Below, in pieces: positions 1,392 through 27,352 of a DNA stretch of 27,982 nucleotides. Below the pieces are notes generated by a model. It made no database searches. It was not told the DNA's origin and was given only the letters and a program-made list of their open reading frames with translations. The position numbers and the translations under genes were made by a program. The DNA comes from a virus: positions 1 through 27,982 of the IMG/VR virus record IMGVR_UViG_3300025131_000316; one strand, written 5' to 3'. The number at the start of each line of letters is the position of its first letter. Position 1 is the first letter of the stretch.

Positions 1392-1479
1392 TGGTAGGGT
1401 GGGTAGGATTCAAACCTACGAACCTAATTAAAGGGACAGTTTTACAGACTGTTGCATTTACTCACTCTGCCACCACCCT
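1392..1479 (-). tRNA. tRNA-Tyr (anticodon GUA), CCA encoded
   Basis: An 88-nt type II cloverleaf reads on the minus strand. The acceptor AGGGTGG pairs fully with CCACCCT. The anticodon stem ACAGT/ACTGT encloses loop CTGTAAA, giving anticodon GTA. There is a long variable arm, and the T arm GTAGG-TTTGAAT-CCTAC is intact. Discriminator A is followed by CCA in the DNA. The long variable arm fits bacterial tRNA-Tyr. It lies between two protein genes and probably shares their transcript. Confidence 0.93.
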
Positions 1480-20180: not shown

Positions 20181-21246
20181 GTGCTTTATCTTTCATTAAC
20201 TGTAATATGGCATTGGAAACTGGATGTATGGGCTGATCATCTTCTTTTGCTATATTATATAAGTGACCCATAGCTTTCTCAAATTCAGTATCATAATACT
20301 CATCGTCTTCATCCTCAACATCTAAACGTGCCGTTCTTTTTAGGTCATCAGTATTATCATAAGGCCCCCATGCCATTGGTTGTTTTGATAAGGCAAAAGC
20401 CCTACTTTGTCCTACACTATTATCGGGGAGAGAGCCTTCACCACCTGTGGGTGGGTTTGCGTTTTCTTCCATTGAATTCCTCCTCTTCTTATCTTGATCT
20501 GACAATATCTTAATTTTATTTTCCATATCTCTTTGCTCTGCTAATACAGCACTTTCAGAAGGTAAGTCACCTGTTCTCTCTACAGGTTTTTGTAAATCAT
20601 CTTCATCTTGTTTTAACAACCATTCTACTAATTCTAGTCCAGCAGACTTCTTAACTGCCTTTTTAGTAGGTGATCCATCTGTTAAATACACCCCTAACTT
20701 TTCAACTCCACTTCGTTTCTTCTTGCTTTTTGCTTCCCGTTCTCCATAGGTTGGAGAGAAGATTCCTGCATTAGTTGATGTGAATACGGTTCCTCCAAAG
20801 GAACTCCCACTACTATCACCCCCGTCACCTTCTTTATGTAGATGCTGATGTGAATGAGCGACAGGATGTTGGGGTTTACGCTTTACTTCTTTTGGATCAT
20901 CGTTAACATACGGAGGACTGCCTTTTGTATTTTCTTGTGGGGCTTTCCTGTAGTTCCGTTGTTCTGGATGTAAATAAGATTTATCTTTTAGAAGTTTTGC
21001 AGTAGGAGTATCTTCTGTCCAATCAAGTCGTTTTCTACGAGTTTTATCTCGTGGTGGGTAAGATGGATGATTTGTTAAAGGTCGTTCTACTAAATGTGGT
21101 TTTTCCCCTTCTAAGATTTGACCAATTTCTGTTTTTGCAAATCCAGCAGCGTGGGCTGCTCTTGCAACTTCTTCTGCCTTCTTTTTAGATTCAAAAGGCC
21201 CTTGACTTCCCCAATACCATTTACCATCTTTTTCTTTAATTGGCAT
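20167..21246 (-). CDS. Accessory head protein with KWYWGSQGPF domain (359 aa)
   Basis: TAATG-coupled to the portal. The first 36 residues (KDGKWYWGSQGPFESKKKAE then EVARAAHAAGF) match a small module found in phage head proteins, commonly at ends of portals or proteases. The middle is disordered, with Lys/Pro-rich parts and a His cluster (HPVAHSHQHLH). The C-terminal third is acidic. Probably an assembly or cargo factor; no activity can be assigned. Confidence 0.65.
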   Translation of the reverse strand: MPIKEKDGKWYWGSQGPFESKKKAEEVARAAHAAGFAKTEIGQILEGEKPHLVERPLTNHPSYPPRDKTRRKRLDWTEDTPTAKLLKDKSYLHPEQRNYRKAPQENTKGSPPYVNDDPKEVKRKPQHPVAHSHQHLHKEGDGGDSSGSSFGGTVFTSTNAGIFSPTYGEREAKSKKKRSGVEKLGVYLTDGSPTKKAVKKSAGLELVEWLLKQDEDDLQKPVERTGDLPSESAVLAEQRDMENKIKILSDQDKKRRNSMEENANPPTGGEGSLPDNSVGQSRAFALSKQPMAWGPYDNTDDLKRTARLDVEDEDDEYYDTEFEKAMGHLYNIAKEDDQPIHPVSNAILQLMKDKALDGK

Positions 21247-23207
21247 TAGGCTTCGTCTTCATCGTCATAAGAACCGTCTTCAAAAGGATTATTTCGTCCT
21301 GCTGGTTGATATGATACACTAGGATTCGTATCTTTATTATTATCTAATCGAGCAAAGGTAGCTTTCTCCACAGAAAGAACACTTCCTGCTCCTCCAAGGT
21401 CAGCTACATAATGAACACCTTCATTAGTAAACCAAAGCTTCTTGGCATCTGGAGATAGTTCTTTAACTATTGGAGCAGTAAAACCTTTCTCTAAAAGTGA
21501 TCCAATCCATGTTTTTGATAAGGCATTCTTTTTATCCTTACGCAATCCTAACATACGTTCAGAAGCTTTTCGTTCTCTTGCTTCTGCGTACTCATCTATA
21601 TCACGTTCTTCACCGGGAAGTTTCATGGAAGCGTCCGGGGTTATTCCCCCTGTTCGTCCATTGTACTTTCCTTCAGCTTTTAGTAACATTGCTTGCATAG
21701 GCATTCCACCACCTTCACCACCTTCTGCTTGTTGTTCCATTTGAAGTTGTTGCATTTGGAATTGTTGTTCTTGTTGGGCAACTTCCATAGCTTGTGCTTC
21801 GCCTGCCATTTCAGCAGATGGAACCATGTCACCAGAGATCATGAACTCAGCATCTTCTATAGGAACACCTTCCTCTTTTAAGGATACCGTAAAACCTAAT
21901 CCTGCAAAAGCGGTTACAATTTGCGCCCTTTGTTGAATAAAACTAAGTTTAGTTGCTTCTGCTTTTTCTTCAGGGTTAGGTAAATCTAATGACCAATCAG
22001 TAATTCCGAATGCATCTAATAGACGAGGGAATACTTTCTCTTGAAACATTCTTTGATCTGCTTCAACAACACGACTCATAACAACTAATTGTTGTGTTTG
22101 CGTAGATAATCCTCCAAAAGCTTCAGGTGCGCCCTGCCATGCAGGAGTAACACCCCACATAGATGCAATTCTTTCTCGTATCTCTTCCCTAACAGGGAGA
22201 TAATCCATCTCTTGTAAGGTATGGAATAGTCTTACAAGGTCTACTCGACCCCGTTGACTTCTAGCAGATACTGCTACCATAGGTATATAGTTAGGGTCTA
22301 CACGAGTTTGTGCTGCTATATGCGCCCGTTCTCGGCGTAGTGATTCGGGATCATCTGTTGTAACCATTAACATAGAAGCAGGCATCTTTCTTTCAAAGAA
22401 ATACCTATATAGATTTTTATCCATTCCAATAAGAGTTAATGTCTTTTCAAATATAGTAAGTAATGGACTCCACCCATAAGTTTCCGATGGAGAAAATTTA
22501 GACATGTGAATAACTTCATCATCAAATAAATAAATATGCTGATTCCTGTGATAATATTTATACATGACCGAATACATTTCCAATCCGCAGTCGGGTTCAG
22601 TACATTTTCCTCTGGACTCATGGAGTTCTTCTCGATGGATCGGACATATAAAATGTGCGTTTTTCGGTAAGCCAGCAACGTCAAGGTCGAATTCGACCAA
22701 GGCTGGATTGAGTCTTCGTACTTCTTTAACTTTGGATCGAAGTTTTCCGTCTTCTCCATGTTTATATTCCTTATGTAAATATAAAAAACCGTCATCAATT
22801 GAATTCACATCAAAATGGAACTGTTTTAATACTTCTTCTAAAGACTGATCAAATATATTACAGTCCACTAAAAATTTATCAAATCTATCTTTTTGTTTTT
22901 CATCAGGACGATCAACTTTAGGTTTCCAAATAATGCCTCTTCTAAAAACTTCTCCAGTAATATGATTTAAAGGGGTTCGTACTTCTTGTACTGTCATACA
23001 GACTGTCTGTAAATCTTGAACTAATTGTTGTCTGTACGCCATTTGATGACGTACCCAAGTATTAACTACATGATCTAGTCCAATAGTGGGGGCTTCACCT
23101 GTATCCCCCGCCGATTTCATTAGAGACATCATATTTACTTGCTCATTAAGATTAATTAATGATTGAGCAAACTGTGGTACTTCGGGTAAATATTCAGATA
23201 ATTTCAT
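21246..23207 (-). CDS. Portal protein
   Basis: 653 aa. Portal features: N-terminal wing region, TPLNHITGEVFRRGIIW near 80, IDDGFLYLHKEY near 137, DDEVIHMSKFSPSETYGWSP near 230, then the stem and clip region IRERIASMWGVTPAWQGAPE near 345. It builds the dodecameric DNA channel at the capsid vertex. Residues 188-207 carry a Cys/His insertion (C188, H191, C202, C207), possibly a zinc site. A Gln/Met-rich tract follows residue 480. It follows the coiled-coil gene with no intergenic space. Confidence 0.88.
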   Translation of the reverse strand: MKLSEYLPEVPQFAQSLINLNEQVNMMSLMKSAGDTGEAPTIGLDHVVNTWVRHQMAYRQQLVQDLQTVCMTVQEVRTPLNHITGEVFRRGIIWKPKVDRPDEKQKDRFDKFLVDCNIFDQSLEEVLKQFHFDVNSIDDGFLYLHKEYKHGEDGKLRSKVKEVRRLNPALVEFDLDVAGLPKNAHFICPIHREELHESRGKCTEPDCGLEMYSVMYKYYHRNQHIYLFDDEVIHMSKFSPSETYGWSPLLTIFEKTLTLIGMDKNLYRYFFERKMPASMLMVTTDDPESLRRERAHIAAQTRVDPNYIPMVAVSARSQRGRVDLVRLFHTLQEMDYLPVREEIRERIASMWGVTPAWQGAPEAFGGLSTQTQQLVVMSRVVEADQRMFQEKVFPRLLDAFGITDWSLDLPNPEEKAEATKLSFIQQRAQIVTAFAGLGFTVSLKEEGVPIEDAEFMISGDMVPSAEMAGEAQAMEVAQQEQQFQMQQLQMEQQAEGGEGGGMPMQAMLLKAEGKYNGRTGGITPDASMKLPGEERDIDEYAEARERKASERMLGLRKDKKNALSKTWIGSLLEKGFTAPIVKELSPDAKKLWFTNEGVHYVADLGGAGSVLSVEKATFARLDNNKDTNPSVSYQPAGRNNPFEDGSYDDEDEA

Positions 23208-23654
23208 TTATTGCTCCCTACCTAGATTTGTCATATCCTGCATCGATACTAATTTTAGAATTGAGTTCATTGCTTTTTCCTTCAGTTCATAATCTTTTGA
23301 ATAAGAAGTTTCCCTAATCACTTGGGATTTCTCTTCTTCCAAAGCTGTAATTTTTGTATTTAAATCTTGTATTTCTTGGTCTTTTTCTAGGAGTTCAGCT
23401 TCAAATTCAGCTGCTCCTGTTCCATAAGTAGCATTTGCTAAGATGCCTAATCGCCCCGCTTCTTTAATAAGGGCTATAAATTCCCCTTCAGTTAACACTT
23501 TAACTGCGGGATTCTCATCATCTATATCATCTTCTAAATCTATATTTTTTAGACCATCACTCCAACTATCCAATATCCTCCATGTCTGTGTCGTATCATC
23601 TTTCATTGCTATATACTGTACTTCTCTATCTCTTAACATATTTCCCATAACCAT
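23208..23654 (-). CDS. Coiled-coil hypothetical protein upstream of portal (148 aa)
   Basis: MVMGNMLRDREVQYIAMK behind AAAGGAGAGTAAAGT. N-terminal mixed domain with an acidic DLEDDIDDENP, then a coiled coil at about 80-115 (LLEKDQEIQDLNTKITALEE). Its stop directly abuts the portal ATG. Probably an assembly partner; no family recognised. Confidence 0.75.
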   Translation of the reverse strand: MVMGNMLRDREVQYIAMKDDTTQTWRILDSWSDGLKNIDLEDDIDDENPAVKVLTEGEFIALIKEAGRLGILANATYGTGAAEFEAELLEKDQEIQDLNTKITALEEEKSQVIRETSYSKDYELKEKAMNSILKLVSMQDMTNLGREQ

Positions 23655-23685: not shown

Positions 23686-23700
23686 GGATCACCTCCTTTA
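23686..23700 (-). promoter_or_regulatory. Extended anti-16S (super Shine-Dalgarno) sequence
   Basis: TAAAGGAGGTGATCC is complementary to the conserved 3' end of bacterial 16S rRNA (GGATCACCTCCTTTA) over 15 bases. It begins with the glutaredoxin stop codon and has no start codon at usable distance; the next gene has its own site 25 bases later. Possibly a ribosome stand-by site. Confidence 0.5.
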
Positions 23701-23925
23701 CGCACCAAAAGTTTTTGCTAATACTCCGGGGCTATACCCCACTACCACTCTATTTCCCTTCACTACAACGGGGGTTGTGCGGTAACCTTGTTGTACTAAC
23801 TCTTTTAAATATTTGTCATTCGTAGAAACGTTTCGTTCCTCAAAATCTATTGAGTTATTTCGCAACCAAGACTTAGTTGCCATACAAGGCCCTCACCCGT
23901 TAGATGTATATATTATTGTACTCAT
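23698..23925 (-). CDS. Putative selenocysteine glutaredoxin (in-frame UGA in UGPC motif)
   Basis: From ATG at 23925 the frame reads MSTIIYTSNG, then TGA at 23895-23893, then GPCMATKSWLRNN and on to FEERNVS, TTPVVV and the end: 75 residues with TGA as U11. The part after TGA is clearly a glutaredoxin/NrdH-type thioredoxin fold lacking only beta-1 and the first catalytic Cys. Both are supplied exactly by the 10 codons before TGA (YTSNG-U-GPC). The cis-Pro loop (TTP) is present. A SECIS-like hairpin follows. ATG abuts the previous stop (TAAATG). Adjacent nrdJ suggests it reduces the ribonucleotide reductase. Sec incorporation is inferred. Confidence 0.85.
23862..23880 (-). promoter_or_regulatory. 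Candidate bacterial SECIS element
   Basis: GCAACTAA-GTC-TTGGTTGC: an 8-bp stem (one GU pair) with a GUC loop. It starts 12 nt after the UGA, placing the loop 20 nt downstream, within the 16-37 nt range and with the loop G expected of bacterial SECIS hairpins bound by SelB. It is inside the coding region, as in bacteria. Confidence 0.7.
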
Positions 23926-24030
23926 TTATGTATTTATTACTCCTATCATGATTGTTGTTACCAAACTTAAAATGGCGATAAGGACTGCTAGTTGAATTAA
24001 CAGTCCCCATATATCTGAATTCCAACCCAT
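23926..24030 (-). CDS. Membrane micropeptide upstream of selenoprotein (34 aa)
   Basis: ATG at 24030 with AAAGGTGA upstream. MGWNSDIW, then GLLIQLAVLIAILSLVTTIM as a membrane helix and a short tail. Its TAA directly abuts the ATG of the glutaredoxin-like gene, so the two are likely co-translated. Function unknown. Confidence 0.65.
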   Translation of the reverse strand: MGWNSDIWGLLIQLAVLIAILSLVTTIMIGVINT

Positions 24031-24040
24031 TGCATCACCT

Positions 24041-25408
24041 TTACTCGTTGGTTAAAGTACTTGTAGGTGCAGCAGTAACGACTTCAACGTTGTCGCTTAC
24101 ATTCCAATTGGCAGCTGTTACACTTTGATGTATCTTGAATTCCTTAGTAGCAAATCCATCTGAGACACCAGCGTTACCACCACCACCTATTTCATTAAGT
24201 TTTATAGTTAATGTGCCGATTTTCATTCGGTCAAATACACATGCGCCCCCTTCAGTAAATAAATTTGAAAGGGTTAGTTTATCTATTTTCCCATTTTTAT
24301 TGCTGGTTGGGGCATCGATATGTATCCTATCATATGATCCGCCCGAAGTGACCATCGCTTCAGCCTGATGATGTCCACCACCGACTGCCCTCATTCTTGA
24401 GGTTCCCGGTGATTGATTAATTGATTGCCCGTCTGAGGCGTTTCCAATTACGTTAATCGTATGCGCCGTAATATTATCGAAATACATAAACGTACATCTC
24501 GACTTCTCGATCAGTAATTCGCCCACCTCTAGAAAAGTAGGGACTGCATTCTCTCCAGCTACTACTGTTCCACCAATCAATACTGCTGTAGCCGCAGCCG
24601 CAGTACCACCCGCAGAAGTATGTGCTGATGAAGGTATCGCAGACCCGGTATAAACCGTACCTACTGTTACATTCTCTATTTTAATTTCTCTTACTGGAGT
24701 GTCTGCTAAGACTATTCTTAACGTATTATCTTCTTTGTTTTCCTTTCTCCACGCTAGTTCTTGTTCTAGAGTTGCAGAAGGGTTCTGGGCAGGGGCAGCA
24801 TAAATGCCTGAATCTCCATTTGTAAATGATCGATCTGCAAGAACTGTTTCATTAACTACGACACCAGTACCCGCCGTACCGCCAAGTGCTAACAAGCCTA
24901 TAGCCATTTGTGGACTTAGCCCCATCATTCTCAAGAAGGAATAAGGAGACATTATGATTTTAAAGGCTGTCTTCCATTTTGCTGACTCAGCATTTAAATA
25001 TTCTATTTTAACCAGCAGCCAATTTCTCCATATAGTTACTTTTTTATATATTGTTATGGGCGATTTAAGAATTGCAGAGGGTTTAAAATTAGATAAGTGT
25101 AGAATAAACCCAGCTAAAATTAATCCCACAGAACCACTAATTGACCACAGCAAATTCGCTTGTAATAAAACTATTCCATCAAAAAGTTCTGTTGCCAAAC
25201 TCATCGATATATAAGGAGTAATAGCAGGAATAGGATTTATATATGATACAAATAATCCAAGGCTACCTAACCCTAATAAAAGTGTAGTATTTATCATCCC
25301 CAAAACCGTAGCTATCCGTTTAATAGGTATCTTAAACCTCGGAAATTTAATTGTTGGCAAAGCTATTTTAGGCATGGAAAACTGGGGTTTAAAAAATTTT
25401 TTAAACAT
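24041..25408 (-). CDS. Membrane-anchored beta-rich protein (455 aa)
   Basis: ATG at 25408 (MFKKFFKPQFSMPKIALP) with AAGGAGGTATCAT; a longer frame to 25426 lacks a site. A basic Pro-rich N terminus is followed by about three membrane helices (VLGMINTTLLLGLGSLGLFV, a segment around LLWSISGSVGLILAGFIL, and MAIGLLALGGTAGTGVVV near 165-185). The C-terminal 250 residues are Gly/Thr/Asn-rich beta sequence resembling a beta-helix or fibre domain (FDNITAHTINVIGN, KIDKLTLSNLF, KIGTLTIKLNEIGG). Function unknown; possibly a membrane-linked virion or injection component. Confidence 0.7.
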   Translation of the reverse strand: MFKKFFKPQFSMPKIALPTIKFPRFKIPIKRIATVLGMINTTLLLGLGSLGLFVSYINPIPAITPYISMSLATELFDGIVLLQANLLWSISGSVGLILAGFILHLSNFKPSAILKSPITIYKKVTIWRNWLLVKIEYLNAESAKWKTAFKIIMSPYSFLRMMGLSPQMAIGLLALGGTAGTGVVVNETVLADRSFTNGDSGIYAAPAQNPSATLEQELAWRKENKEDNTLRIVLADTPVREIKIENVTVGTVYTGSAIPSSAHTSAGGTAAAATAVLIGGTVVAGENAVPTFLEVGELLIEKSRCTFMYFDNITAHTINVIGNASDGQSINQSPGTSRMRAVGGGHHQAEAMVTSGGSYDRIHIDAPTSNKNGKIDKLTLSNLFTEGGACVFDRMKIGTLTIKLNEIGGGGNAGVSDGFATKEFKIHQSVTAANWNVSDNVEVVTAAPTSTLTNE

Positions 25409-25441
25409 ATGATACCTCCTTACCAACTATGTTCTCTATAT

Positions 25442-25470
25442 ATTATACTAGAAAACTTTAAATTATGCAA
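25442..25470 (-). promoter_or_regulatory. Promoter at end of nrdJ
   Basis: TTGCAT (25470-25465), 17-bp spacer, TATAAT (25447-25442) preceded by TCTAG. The -35 lies in the last codons and stop of nrdJ. It would transcribe the membrane protein, selenoprotein and portal genes. Confidence 0.6.
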
Positions 25471-27352
25471 TCTCACAAGCACTCCAATCACAAGAAAGGC
25501 ATTTATGACAACCTGATTCATAGATAATCTGGGGATTCTCACAACATTCAGCCTCTATTTTATTACTTTTTGTACCTTTTACTAGAATTTCTTGTTCTCG
25601 ACTCCCCGCTCGATAGACCGTAATCCCTTTACATTGCATTGTCCATGCTAACATATATGTATCATAAACATCTTCTATCGTAGATTCGTTTGACATATTA
25701 ATAGTTTTTGATATTCCTGAATCCACATGTGCTTGAAAGGCTGCTTGCATTAAAACATGTTCAGCAGGAGTTAGTTCGGGTGATGTAATAAAAATTTCTT
25801 TTACATCATCAGGAACATCATCTCGATCTTGTAAATTACCGCCTTCAGCCAGATATTCCATAAGATCATCCGAATAAAAACCACGGTTTATTGCTTCCCG
25901 TGTAAAATATAAATTAGTATAAACTAATGTTTGGGCTATTCCTGTCTCTTCCTTTAAAATATTTTGTTTTTTCCACGCTAATGCAAAAGTAGGCTCAATT
26001 CCTGATGAACAATCTGCCAACATAGAGATAGTTCCTGTAGGGGCAACAGTCATACGGCAAGCATTTCGATATACTTCAGTAATGGGATTAAAAGAACTTT
26101 CTTCCCATGCAGGAAAAGGGCCTCTTAATACACCTAATCGAAGCGATTCTTCATTCGCTACCTTAGTAATATAATCTATAAGCCTTGCTGCAATTTCTTG
26201 AGCCTTAGATGAATTATAGGCAACCTTTAATTGAATTAATAAATCAGCAAAACCCATAATCCCTACACCAATTTTACGTGTAGCTTTTGTCATAGTCTCA
26301 ATTTCAGAAGTCGCATAATAATTAGCATCAATTACGTTATCTAAAAAATGTACTGATAATTTAGTTACGGCTGTTAACCGATCCCACTTTATATTTTCTG
26401 TCCATTCTGTACTTGGGCCGTGCGTAATTAAACCCGATGCATCATAACTATTAGCATCACTATAAAATTTTGCAACGTTAATAGAACCTAAATTACATGA
26501 TTCGTTTGCTAACAATGGTTGCTCCCCACAAGGATTTGTAGCAATCATTTCCCCATATTCTTTAATTACTTTATTATCTTTATTAACTCTATCTAAAAAT
26601 ACTATTCCGGGTTCTCCATTTTTATGTGCGCCCTCACAAATCTTTTGAAATACTTCATAAGCATTTAATTTTCCTGCTAATTGATTTGTATGTGGGTCTA
26701 TTAAATTATAGACAAGTTTATTTTTTACACATTCCATAAAATGTTGATCAACACCAACACTAATATTAAAATTGTGTATATCACCTTCAGTTGATTTACA
26801 ATCGATGAACTCAAGTATGTCAGGATGGTATACCGACATAACTGCCATATTCGCTCCATCACGTTTACCTCCTTGGGTAACCATTGAAGAAACACTTGAT
26901 AGGACTTTAAGTACTTCAATAGGCCCACAAGCTTTTCCATGTGTTGTTTTAATGGCTGTTCCTTTGGGACGTAATTTCGATAAGGAAAATCCTGTTCCTC
27001 CACCGAACTTTTGAACCATTGCTGCGTCAGAAGCGGCTTTCATAATACCCTCCATGCTATCTTCTAAGGGTAAAACAAAACATGCTGATAACGTACCTTG
27101 CTTTGTTCCCGCATTCATTAATGTTGGGGAATTAGGAATAAACTCAAGTCGTTCCATAATAGTCAGGAACTGATTTTCCAGTAATTTCTTTTCAATCGGA
27201 AGCGTTAGATATTGATCTTCTACTTCAGCAATCGCTTTCGCTACCCGTTTAAATAAAGCATTTCCGTCTTCAACCGTTTCTCCTCGGTCATTTTTTAAAT
27301 AATACCTGTTCTTTGCAACCACCTCTGCGTGTGGTGCTAATGTTGTTGTCAT
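25463..27352 (-). CDS. nrdJ: Class II (adenosylcobalamin-dependent) ribonucleotide reductase
   Basis: 629 aa, full length, behind AAAGGAGGTTTACAT. Converts ribonucleotides to deoxyribonucleotides using a B12-generated thiyl radical. Visible signatures: FIPNSPTLMN (71-80), redox Cys91 in SACF, GGGTGF (117-122), NPCGEQPL (273-280) with the radical Cys275 and Glu277, partner Cys286 in ESCNLGSIN, PTGTIS near the phosphate site, and the C-terminal shuttle cysteines in GCHKCLSCDWSAC. No tyrosyl-radical partner gene is needed. Placed between terminase and portal, an unusual location for phage nucleotide metabolism. Needs a thioredoxin or glutaredoxin-like reductant. Confidence 0.97.
   Translation of the reverse strand: MTTTLAPHAEVVAKNRYYLKNDRGETVEDGNALFKRVAKAIAEVEDQYLTLPIEKKLLENQFLTIMERLEFIPNSPTLMNAGTKQGTLSACFVLPLEDSMEGIMKAASDAAMVQKFGGGTGFSLSKLRPKGTAIKTTHGKACGPIEVLKVLSSVSSMVTQGGKRDGANMAVMSVYHPDILEFIDCKSTEGDIHNFNISVGVDQHFMECVKNKLVYNLIDPHTNQLAGKLNAYEVFQKICEGAHKNGEPGIVFLDRVNKDNKVIKEYGEMIATNPCGEQPLLANESCNLGSINVAKFYSDANSYDASGLITHGPSTEWTENIKWDRLTAVTKLSVHFLDNVIDANYYATSEIETMTKATRKIGVGIMGFADLLIQLKVAYNSSKAQEIAARLIDYITKVANEESLRLGVLRGPFPAWEESSFNPITEVYRNACRMTVAPTGTISMLADCSSGIEPTFALAWKKQNILKEETGIAQTLVYTNLYFTREAINRGFYSDDLMEYLAEGGNLQDRDDVPDDVKEIFITSPELTPAEHVLMQAAFQAHVDSGISKTINMSNESTIEDVYDTYMLAWTMQCKGITVYRAGSREQEILVKGTKSNKIEAECCENPQIIYESGCHKCLSCDWSACEIA

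Follow-up and report, generated by a model that had tools for sequence, protein, structure and literature searches.

A putative selenocysteine-containing redoxin encoded near a class II ribonucleotide reductase gene in a tailed phage

The window analyzed here is the entire 27,982-base IMG/VR record IMGVR_UViG_3300025131_000316. The locus of interest includes a short redoxin gene (grx) with an in-frame TGA codon, a hairpin just past that codon, and neighboring genes that include a class II ribonucleotide reductase (RNR) and a portal protein. Profile matches also identify SU10-like capsid, head protease, and exonuclease genes in the window, and no near relative of the window was found among GenBank phages. 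The features discussed below are as follows.

1392-1479, minus strand: tRNA-Tyr (gta), 88 nt, with a long variable arm of bacterial type (ARAGORN)
21246-23207, minus strand: portal protein, used as a synteny anchor (phrog_18178, 8e-39; synteny)
23208-23654, minus strand: 148-aa protein, the conserved neighbor after grx (synteny)
23698-23925, minus strand: grx, predicted selenoprotein glutaredoxin (NrdH/YruB-like), 75 aa (translation, PF00462, AlphaFold2 model, fold matches, TGA in 38 other contigs)
23862-23880, minus strand: putative bSECIS hairpin, GCAACUA-AGUCU-UGGUUGC, loop at 23873-23869 (synonymous freezing, covariation, position relative to cellular SECIS)
23893-23895, minus strand: UGA codon, predicted selenocysteine (Sec) at residue 11, first in the UGPC motif (TGA/Cys orthology)
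23926-24030, minus strand: hydrophobic open reading frame of 34 aa, whose TAA directly abuts the grx ATG (sequence, translation)
24041-25426, minus strand: 461-aa protein between nrdJ and grx (translation, synteny)
25463-27352, minus strand: nrdJ, adenosylcobalamin-dependent class II RNR with a Cys-rich C-terminal tail, the proposed electron acceptor (TIGR02504, tree, identity)

The grx frame can be read directly from the minus strand: it opens with ATG at 23925, meets its sole internal stop, the TGA, at 23895-23893, and closes with TAA at 23700-23698, giving 75 residues. Exactly ten codons (MSTIIYTSNG) precede the TGA, which is followed by GPC, a TTP (cis-Pro) loop, and VVGY. The read-through product is MSTIIYTSNG-U-GPCMATKSWLRNNSIDFEERNVSTNDKYLKELVQQGYRTTPVVVKGNRVVVGYSPGVLAKTFGA, in which the resolving Cys14 of the predicted UGPC redoxin is intact. 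The initial annotation had proposed that a single in-frame TGA stands at the first catalytic Cys of a glutaredoxin CGPC motif, with ten codons ahead of it and an intact glutaredoxin frame with a cis-Pro loop behind it. Both claims held, the first on the evidence of the translation, PF00462, and the orthologs described below.

The Pfam glutaredoxin profile PF00462 matches residues 4 to 60 of the read-through product at 51.4 bits (cut-off, 22.9). An AlphaFold2 model built with 14 relatives in the alignment has a mean pLDDT of 95.3, and its best PDB matches are cGrx1 (7c10; TM score, 0.90) and Escherichia coli NrdH (1h75; TM score, 0.86), within a range of 0.86 to 0.91 for Grx/NrdH structures. 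The product therefore meets the criteria of profile cut-off, UxxC motif, TTP cis-Pro, and fold for membership in the glutaredoxins. The best NCBIfam family is NrdH (TIGR02194) at 59.8 bits, under the cut-off of 85.75, and UXX-star (NF041212) scores 57.2 bits, under its cut-off of 66; by these cut-offs, the window redoxin is neither NrdH nor UXX-star. From sequence alone, we infer that the product is of the NrdH/YruB-like type and not a classical GSH glutaredoxin.

Sec-containing glutaredoxins are known from bacteria and have been found in Sargasso Sea data, and UxxC Grx selenoproteins are listed in PMC13188914 and PMC1088965. The closest structural counterpart is cGrx1 of Clostridium oremlandii (7c10, dithiol form). 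Like cGrx1 and the other UxxC Grx selenoproteins, the window protein is a small PF00462 redoxin with a predicted Sec in a UxxC motif and a bSECIS-like hairpin just past the UGA; unlike cGrx1, to which it is 34% identical over the fold alignment, it is phage encoded, has a UGPC motif, and lies downstream of a class II RNR gene. It shares with NrdH the best family match, the fold, and an RNR neighbor, but Sec is predicted to replace the first Cys and the proposed partner is a class II rather than a class Ib enzyme. The UXX-star (seleno)proteins (NF041212, NF041211, and NF041114) are likewise bacterial glutaredoxin-like selenoproteins, but the window protein falls below their cut-offs and keeps its resolving Cys. 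The phage thioredoxin/NrdH-type redoxins of PHROG 22 are also phage-borne glutaredoxin-like proteins; the 216 GenBank phage records that match are all <60% identical, and Cys is present in each of the three unannotated records examined.

Scanning viral contigs at the protein level recovered 17 with TGA at the grx codon, at identities from 99% down to ~50%, and five (L019 to L023) with TGC or TGT at that codon, giving the motif CAPC or CSPC. A search with a DNA pattern that places no constraint on the residues downstream added 21 further UGA contigs. With the window, this amounts to 39 UGA contigs (38 others), many at ~42 to 60% protein identity, and five syntenic Cys contigs. The criterion for a selenoprotein gene, UGA where orthologs have Cys, is thus fulfilled; within the window's lineage the two forms are syntenic, and we regard this orthology as shown. 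The initial annotation had suggested this search for homologs with Cys or UGA at the codon and had named among its possible refutations an assembly error at the TGA, which is excluded by the identical TGA in the 38 other contigs, and homologs that all start at the internal ATG, which is not the case, as the Cys orthologs encode the upstream strand. The trees do not resolve the direction of change between Sec and Cys: the Cys phages group with the window, on long branches, in the redoxin tree but fall outside the Sec phages in the NrdJ tree.

Within the reach of each contig, 31 of the 39 Sec contigs, the window included, follow the order terminase-nrdJ-(461-aa protein)-grx-148-aa protein-portal; the 461-aa gene is missing from some of these and from the Cys contigs, which otherwise keep the order. 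Synteny with nrdJ is shown: in the window's lineage, nrdJ lies upstream of grx in all contigs that reach that far. The Cys contigs, as well as Sec contigs L165 and L172, have the two genes side by side (~50 nt); elsewhere grx lies further downstream. The window NrdJ scores 622 bits with TIGR02504 (cut-off, 399.95), and its Cys-rich tail ends ...SGCHKCLSCDWSACEIA. Translational coupling of the 34-aa open reading frame with grx is possible.

The 461-aa protein has no match in Pfam, PHROG, or NCBIfam, and its gene has no match at the corresponding place in the Cys contigs or in L165 and L172. Its C-terminal part is 92 to 100% identical among the window, L026, L040, and L159; because this far exceeds the identity of neighboring genes (~50 to 65%), recombination or exchange of this gene is suggested.

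The remaining eight Sec contigs form three further phage groups. The first is a single contig (L158) with a DNA polymerase, UvsX, and its own class II nrdJ ~1.5 kb upstream of grx, in a lineage separate from the window's. The second comprises six related contigs (L157, L161, L166, L171, L174, and L176) whose DNA polymerase A carries a fused uracil-DNA-glycosylase domain; the longest contig read also has a tail-fiber gene. The third, again a single contig (L162), encodes DnaB and polymerase A. At their grx loci, the second and third groups showed no match to the window's nrdJ. Hence, on sequence inference, UGPC Sec redoxin genes very probably recur in four phage groups, mostly marine.

The putative bSECIS hairpin begins 15 nt after the first base of the UGA, and its stem spans 15 to 33 nt from the UGA; the E. 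coli fdhF SECIS, itself confirmed, was used for orientation. The phage consensus is GCAACYA-AGUCU-UGGUUGC. The hairpin codons GCA, ACY, AAG, and TCT are each frozen in 14/14 Sec loci, compared with 35, 45, 25, and 27% in the phages' own usage, and ACA or ACG never encodes the Thr at the hairpin, though together they make up 55% of Thr codons. Invariant degenerate positions keep a single codon in three of four cases in the hairpin versus 1 of 14 in the rest of the gene (Fisher P = 0.019). The Cys orthologs instead read GCT ACG AAA TCT at this site, with the stem broken and the loop G lost. Among the phages, two pairs are compensated (e.g., C-G to U-A in L165), and 89.3% of cells pair. A hairpin directly downstream of the UGA with a conserved apical-loop G meets the SECIS criterion; the loop G is invariant in the phages, and the next U varies in some.

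Cellular UGPC redoxins of the SAR202 order of Chloroflexota (L104 to L139), described further below, resemble the phage form in the UGPC motif, length, and VTxIG..VVGY core, and they likewise have a UGA followed by a SECIS with a 7-bp stem and a 5-nt NGUNN loop. Their hairpin (GUGAAAG-NGUAY-CUUUCAC) differs in that the stem, GUGAAAG/CUUUCAC, is wholly different and lies one codon (three bases) further from the UGA. When phage and cellular hairpins are taken together, 95.6% of cells pair, five of seven pairs are changed on both sides, and covariation is 0.725 versus 0.29 for shuffled data (0/500 shuffles); no slid register exceeds 58.2% pairing. The register of this comparison was picked by hand, which biases it toward structure. 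The loop G-U is invariant in the phage and cellular comparison set. The host-type SECIS pattern had no exact match in the viral contigs, and a variant of it is carried by the L158 and L161 groups.

Folding energy is modest evidence on its own. Synonymous recodings reach the native value in 0.1 to 4.5% of cases at TTG-type loci and in ~31 to 36% at TTA-type loci, so single-sequence folding is only moderately unusual. Under a loose definition, a hairpin of ≥6 bp arises in 8 to 10% of recodings, and the Cys forms have one somewhere as well. We rely on codon freezing and covariation because the energy test is weak for each sequence and the loose hairpin finder fires on Cys forms. RNAalifold applied to a wider 89-nt region gave another pairing that includes the UGA bases and shows no covariation, and it was dropped in favor of the conserved downstream hairpin. 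An Rfam search for a known element returned only the tRNA. The check with a bSECIS predictor that the initial annotation had proposed is answered by a bSECIS-like hairpin that is present, constrained, and covarying.

In 23 phage records tested, mostly fragments, neither selB nor a tRNA-Sec above cut-off was found, and the simplest reading is therefore that the host does the decoding. The sole phage tRNA-Sec match, below cut-off, was the window's tRNA-Tyr, which ARAGORN reports as the only tRNA in the window; it found none in the relatives scanned. Across 84,980 genomes scanned with the phage redoxin profile, using patterns that require a Cys codon, a single relative was recovered, a Cys redoxin in a SAR202 Chloroflexota MAG. 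This MAG encodes selA (564 bits), selB (362 bits), and tRNA-Sec (65 bits), and of the 197 genomes of its order, 170 have selA above cut-off; the presence of Sec genes in the SAR202 order is thus shown. In many genomes of the order, a gene for a UGPC redoxin contains a single internal TGA, and scores against the phage profile reach 97 bits. This selenoredoxin is widespread in the order, and the two examples scanned match no NCBIfam family above its cut-off. The order also has a Cys/Sec paralog (L140 to L144), whose motifs include YSSNMCGACEMVK.

The window NrdJ is 58 to 61% identical to that of a SAR202-order subgroup and ≤49% identical elsewhere in the phylum sample (genomes of other phyla were outside this comparison), and it is 41.5% identical to the best GenBank phage. 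In the NrdJ tree, the phage clade falls inside the SAR202-order subgroup with 100/100 support. In the redoxin tree, the window-lineage phage forms make up a clade separate from the SAR202-order cellular redoxins (98/96). We infer that members of the SAR202 order are likely the hosts of these phages and that grx and nrdJ are both likely of SAR202-lineage origin. Four genomes (G784, G760, G225, and G756) have nrdJ genes among those closest to the phage's, yet no full selA; they may be Sec-less or simply incomplete. One could speculate that the Cys form in some phages mirrors Sec-less hosts.

Given these observations, we consider it very likely (probability, ~0.9) that grx, a gene of a tailed phage, encodes a genuine selenoprotein. 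Sec insertion itself is inferred, and there are no protein or selenium data. The initial annotation had proposed a probable phage-encoded selenocysteine glutaredoxin, and all sequence criteria tested support this; the refinements are that the product is NrdH/YruB-like, that a class II RNR gene of the phage is close to its gene, and that cellular Sec homologs exist. A host lacking Sec genes, which it had named as a refutation, is not what we see in the best-supported host lineage, though the host itself is inferred. In the proposed mechanism, the SelB of the infected bacterium, with tRNA-Sec, would bind the hairpin downstream of the UGA, and Sec would be inserted at residue 11 to give a UGPC redoxin with its resolving Cys14. 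Cys-rich RNR tails relay electrons to the active site, after which proteins of the thioredoxin or glutaredoxin type reduce them again. As a dedicated reductant of the phage RNR, the simplest reading, the grx product would reduce the C-terminal cysteines of NrdJ during deoxynucleoside triphosphate synthesis in infection, and we infer that Sec would lower the active-site pKa and speed exchange. That NrdJ is the substrate is likely, an inference that rests only on synteny with nrdJ.

The alternative that best survives is that grx encodes a selenoprotein that does not serve RNR and instead acts in general thiol or peroxide defense or in control of a host redox target, which remains possible. In its favor, the Sec redoxin is not adjacent to nrdJ in SAR202 genomes where both genes were located, the cellular forms match YruB, not NrdH, best among NCBIfam families, and no match to the window's nrdJ was found at grx in the L161 and L162 groups. 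Against it, nrdJ lies upstream throughout the window's lineage where contigs reach, directly adjacent in several, the separate L158 lineage has both genes within 1.5 kb, and the best match of the window redoxin is NrdH, though below cut-off.

It is also possible that the host is not SAR202, with the genes having been exchanged and the phages infecting another Sec-using marine bacterium. The portal was searched for in 393 genomes of the host class and not found, so the host link leans on nrdJ and the redoxin. The only GenBank phage matches of the portal are haloarchaeal tailed viruses (HCTV-5 group) at 27 to 30% identity, which also favors this alternative. The nesting of NrdJ within the SAR202-order subgroup and the presence of a cellular UGPC redoxin in that order argue against it, and an archaeal host is further opposed by the tRNA-Tyr, 88 nt long and of bacterial type, and by the bacterial kind of SECIS.

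That the UGA is a real stop, through sequencing error, a dead gene, or initiation at an internal ATG (23883) to give a 61-aa protein without the active site, is very unlikely. An ATG does lie right after GPC with GAGG ~8 nt before it, and translation table 11 calls only the 61-aa open reading frame. However, the TGA and the upstream frame are kept in the 38 other contigs while the protein diverges to ~50%, Cys orthologs at the corresponding locus read straight through, the upstream ATG of relatives has a strong Shine-Dalgarno sequence, and a frozen hairpin with an intact downstream frame is not expected of a dead gene.

Altered codes are used by some phages, but reassignment of UGA to an ordinary residue (e.g., Trp or Gly) is all but excluded, as TGA ends 8 of the 38 predicted minus-strand genes of the window, the large genes read without internal TGA, the aligned grx site shows only Cys or UGA in orthologs, and ARAGORN found no suppressor tRNA in the window or the relatives scanned. 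A first scan for conserved in-frame TGAs returned mainly frames that overlap real genes; after frames under other open reading frames were masked, grx was the only family-wide site (15 to 18 partners; U or C). The initial view that TGA is a normal stop here (including in genes at 2137, 6526, and 8653) and that reassignment is unlikely therefore held.

Cells are known to make selenoproteins, which have also been suggested for some animal viruses. In the open-access literature searched, we found no phage-encoded selenoprotein, only reports claiming phage tRNA-Sec genes, and a 2026 review of the prokaryotic selenoproteome does not mention phages or viruses; within that literature, the initial statement that no phage Sec thiol oxidoreductase was known also held. 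The protein described here is very likely of a known kind, but we found no report of it in this setting, and it is biochemically unproven. More such genes are probably hidden because standard annotation splits or shortens them.

A bolder reading, toward which the evidence leans only slightly, is that selenoproteins are a regular feature of several unrelated, mostly marine phage lineages, which would carry their own SECIS, use the SelB and tRNA-Sec of the host, and feed a phage B12-dependent RNR with a selenoredoxin. The SECIS sequence of the window's lineage is quite different from that of the likely host. Pairs of orthologs, Sec with a SECIS and Cys without one, offer a natural experiment on the gain and loss of Sec. 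If the bolder reading is true, exchange between Sec and Cys in phages would track the ability of the host to make Sec, and a phage dependent on host Sec would tie viral DNA synthesis to the supply of selenium and B12 in ocean bacteria.
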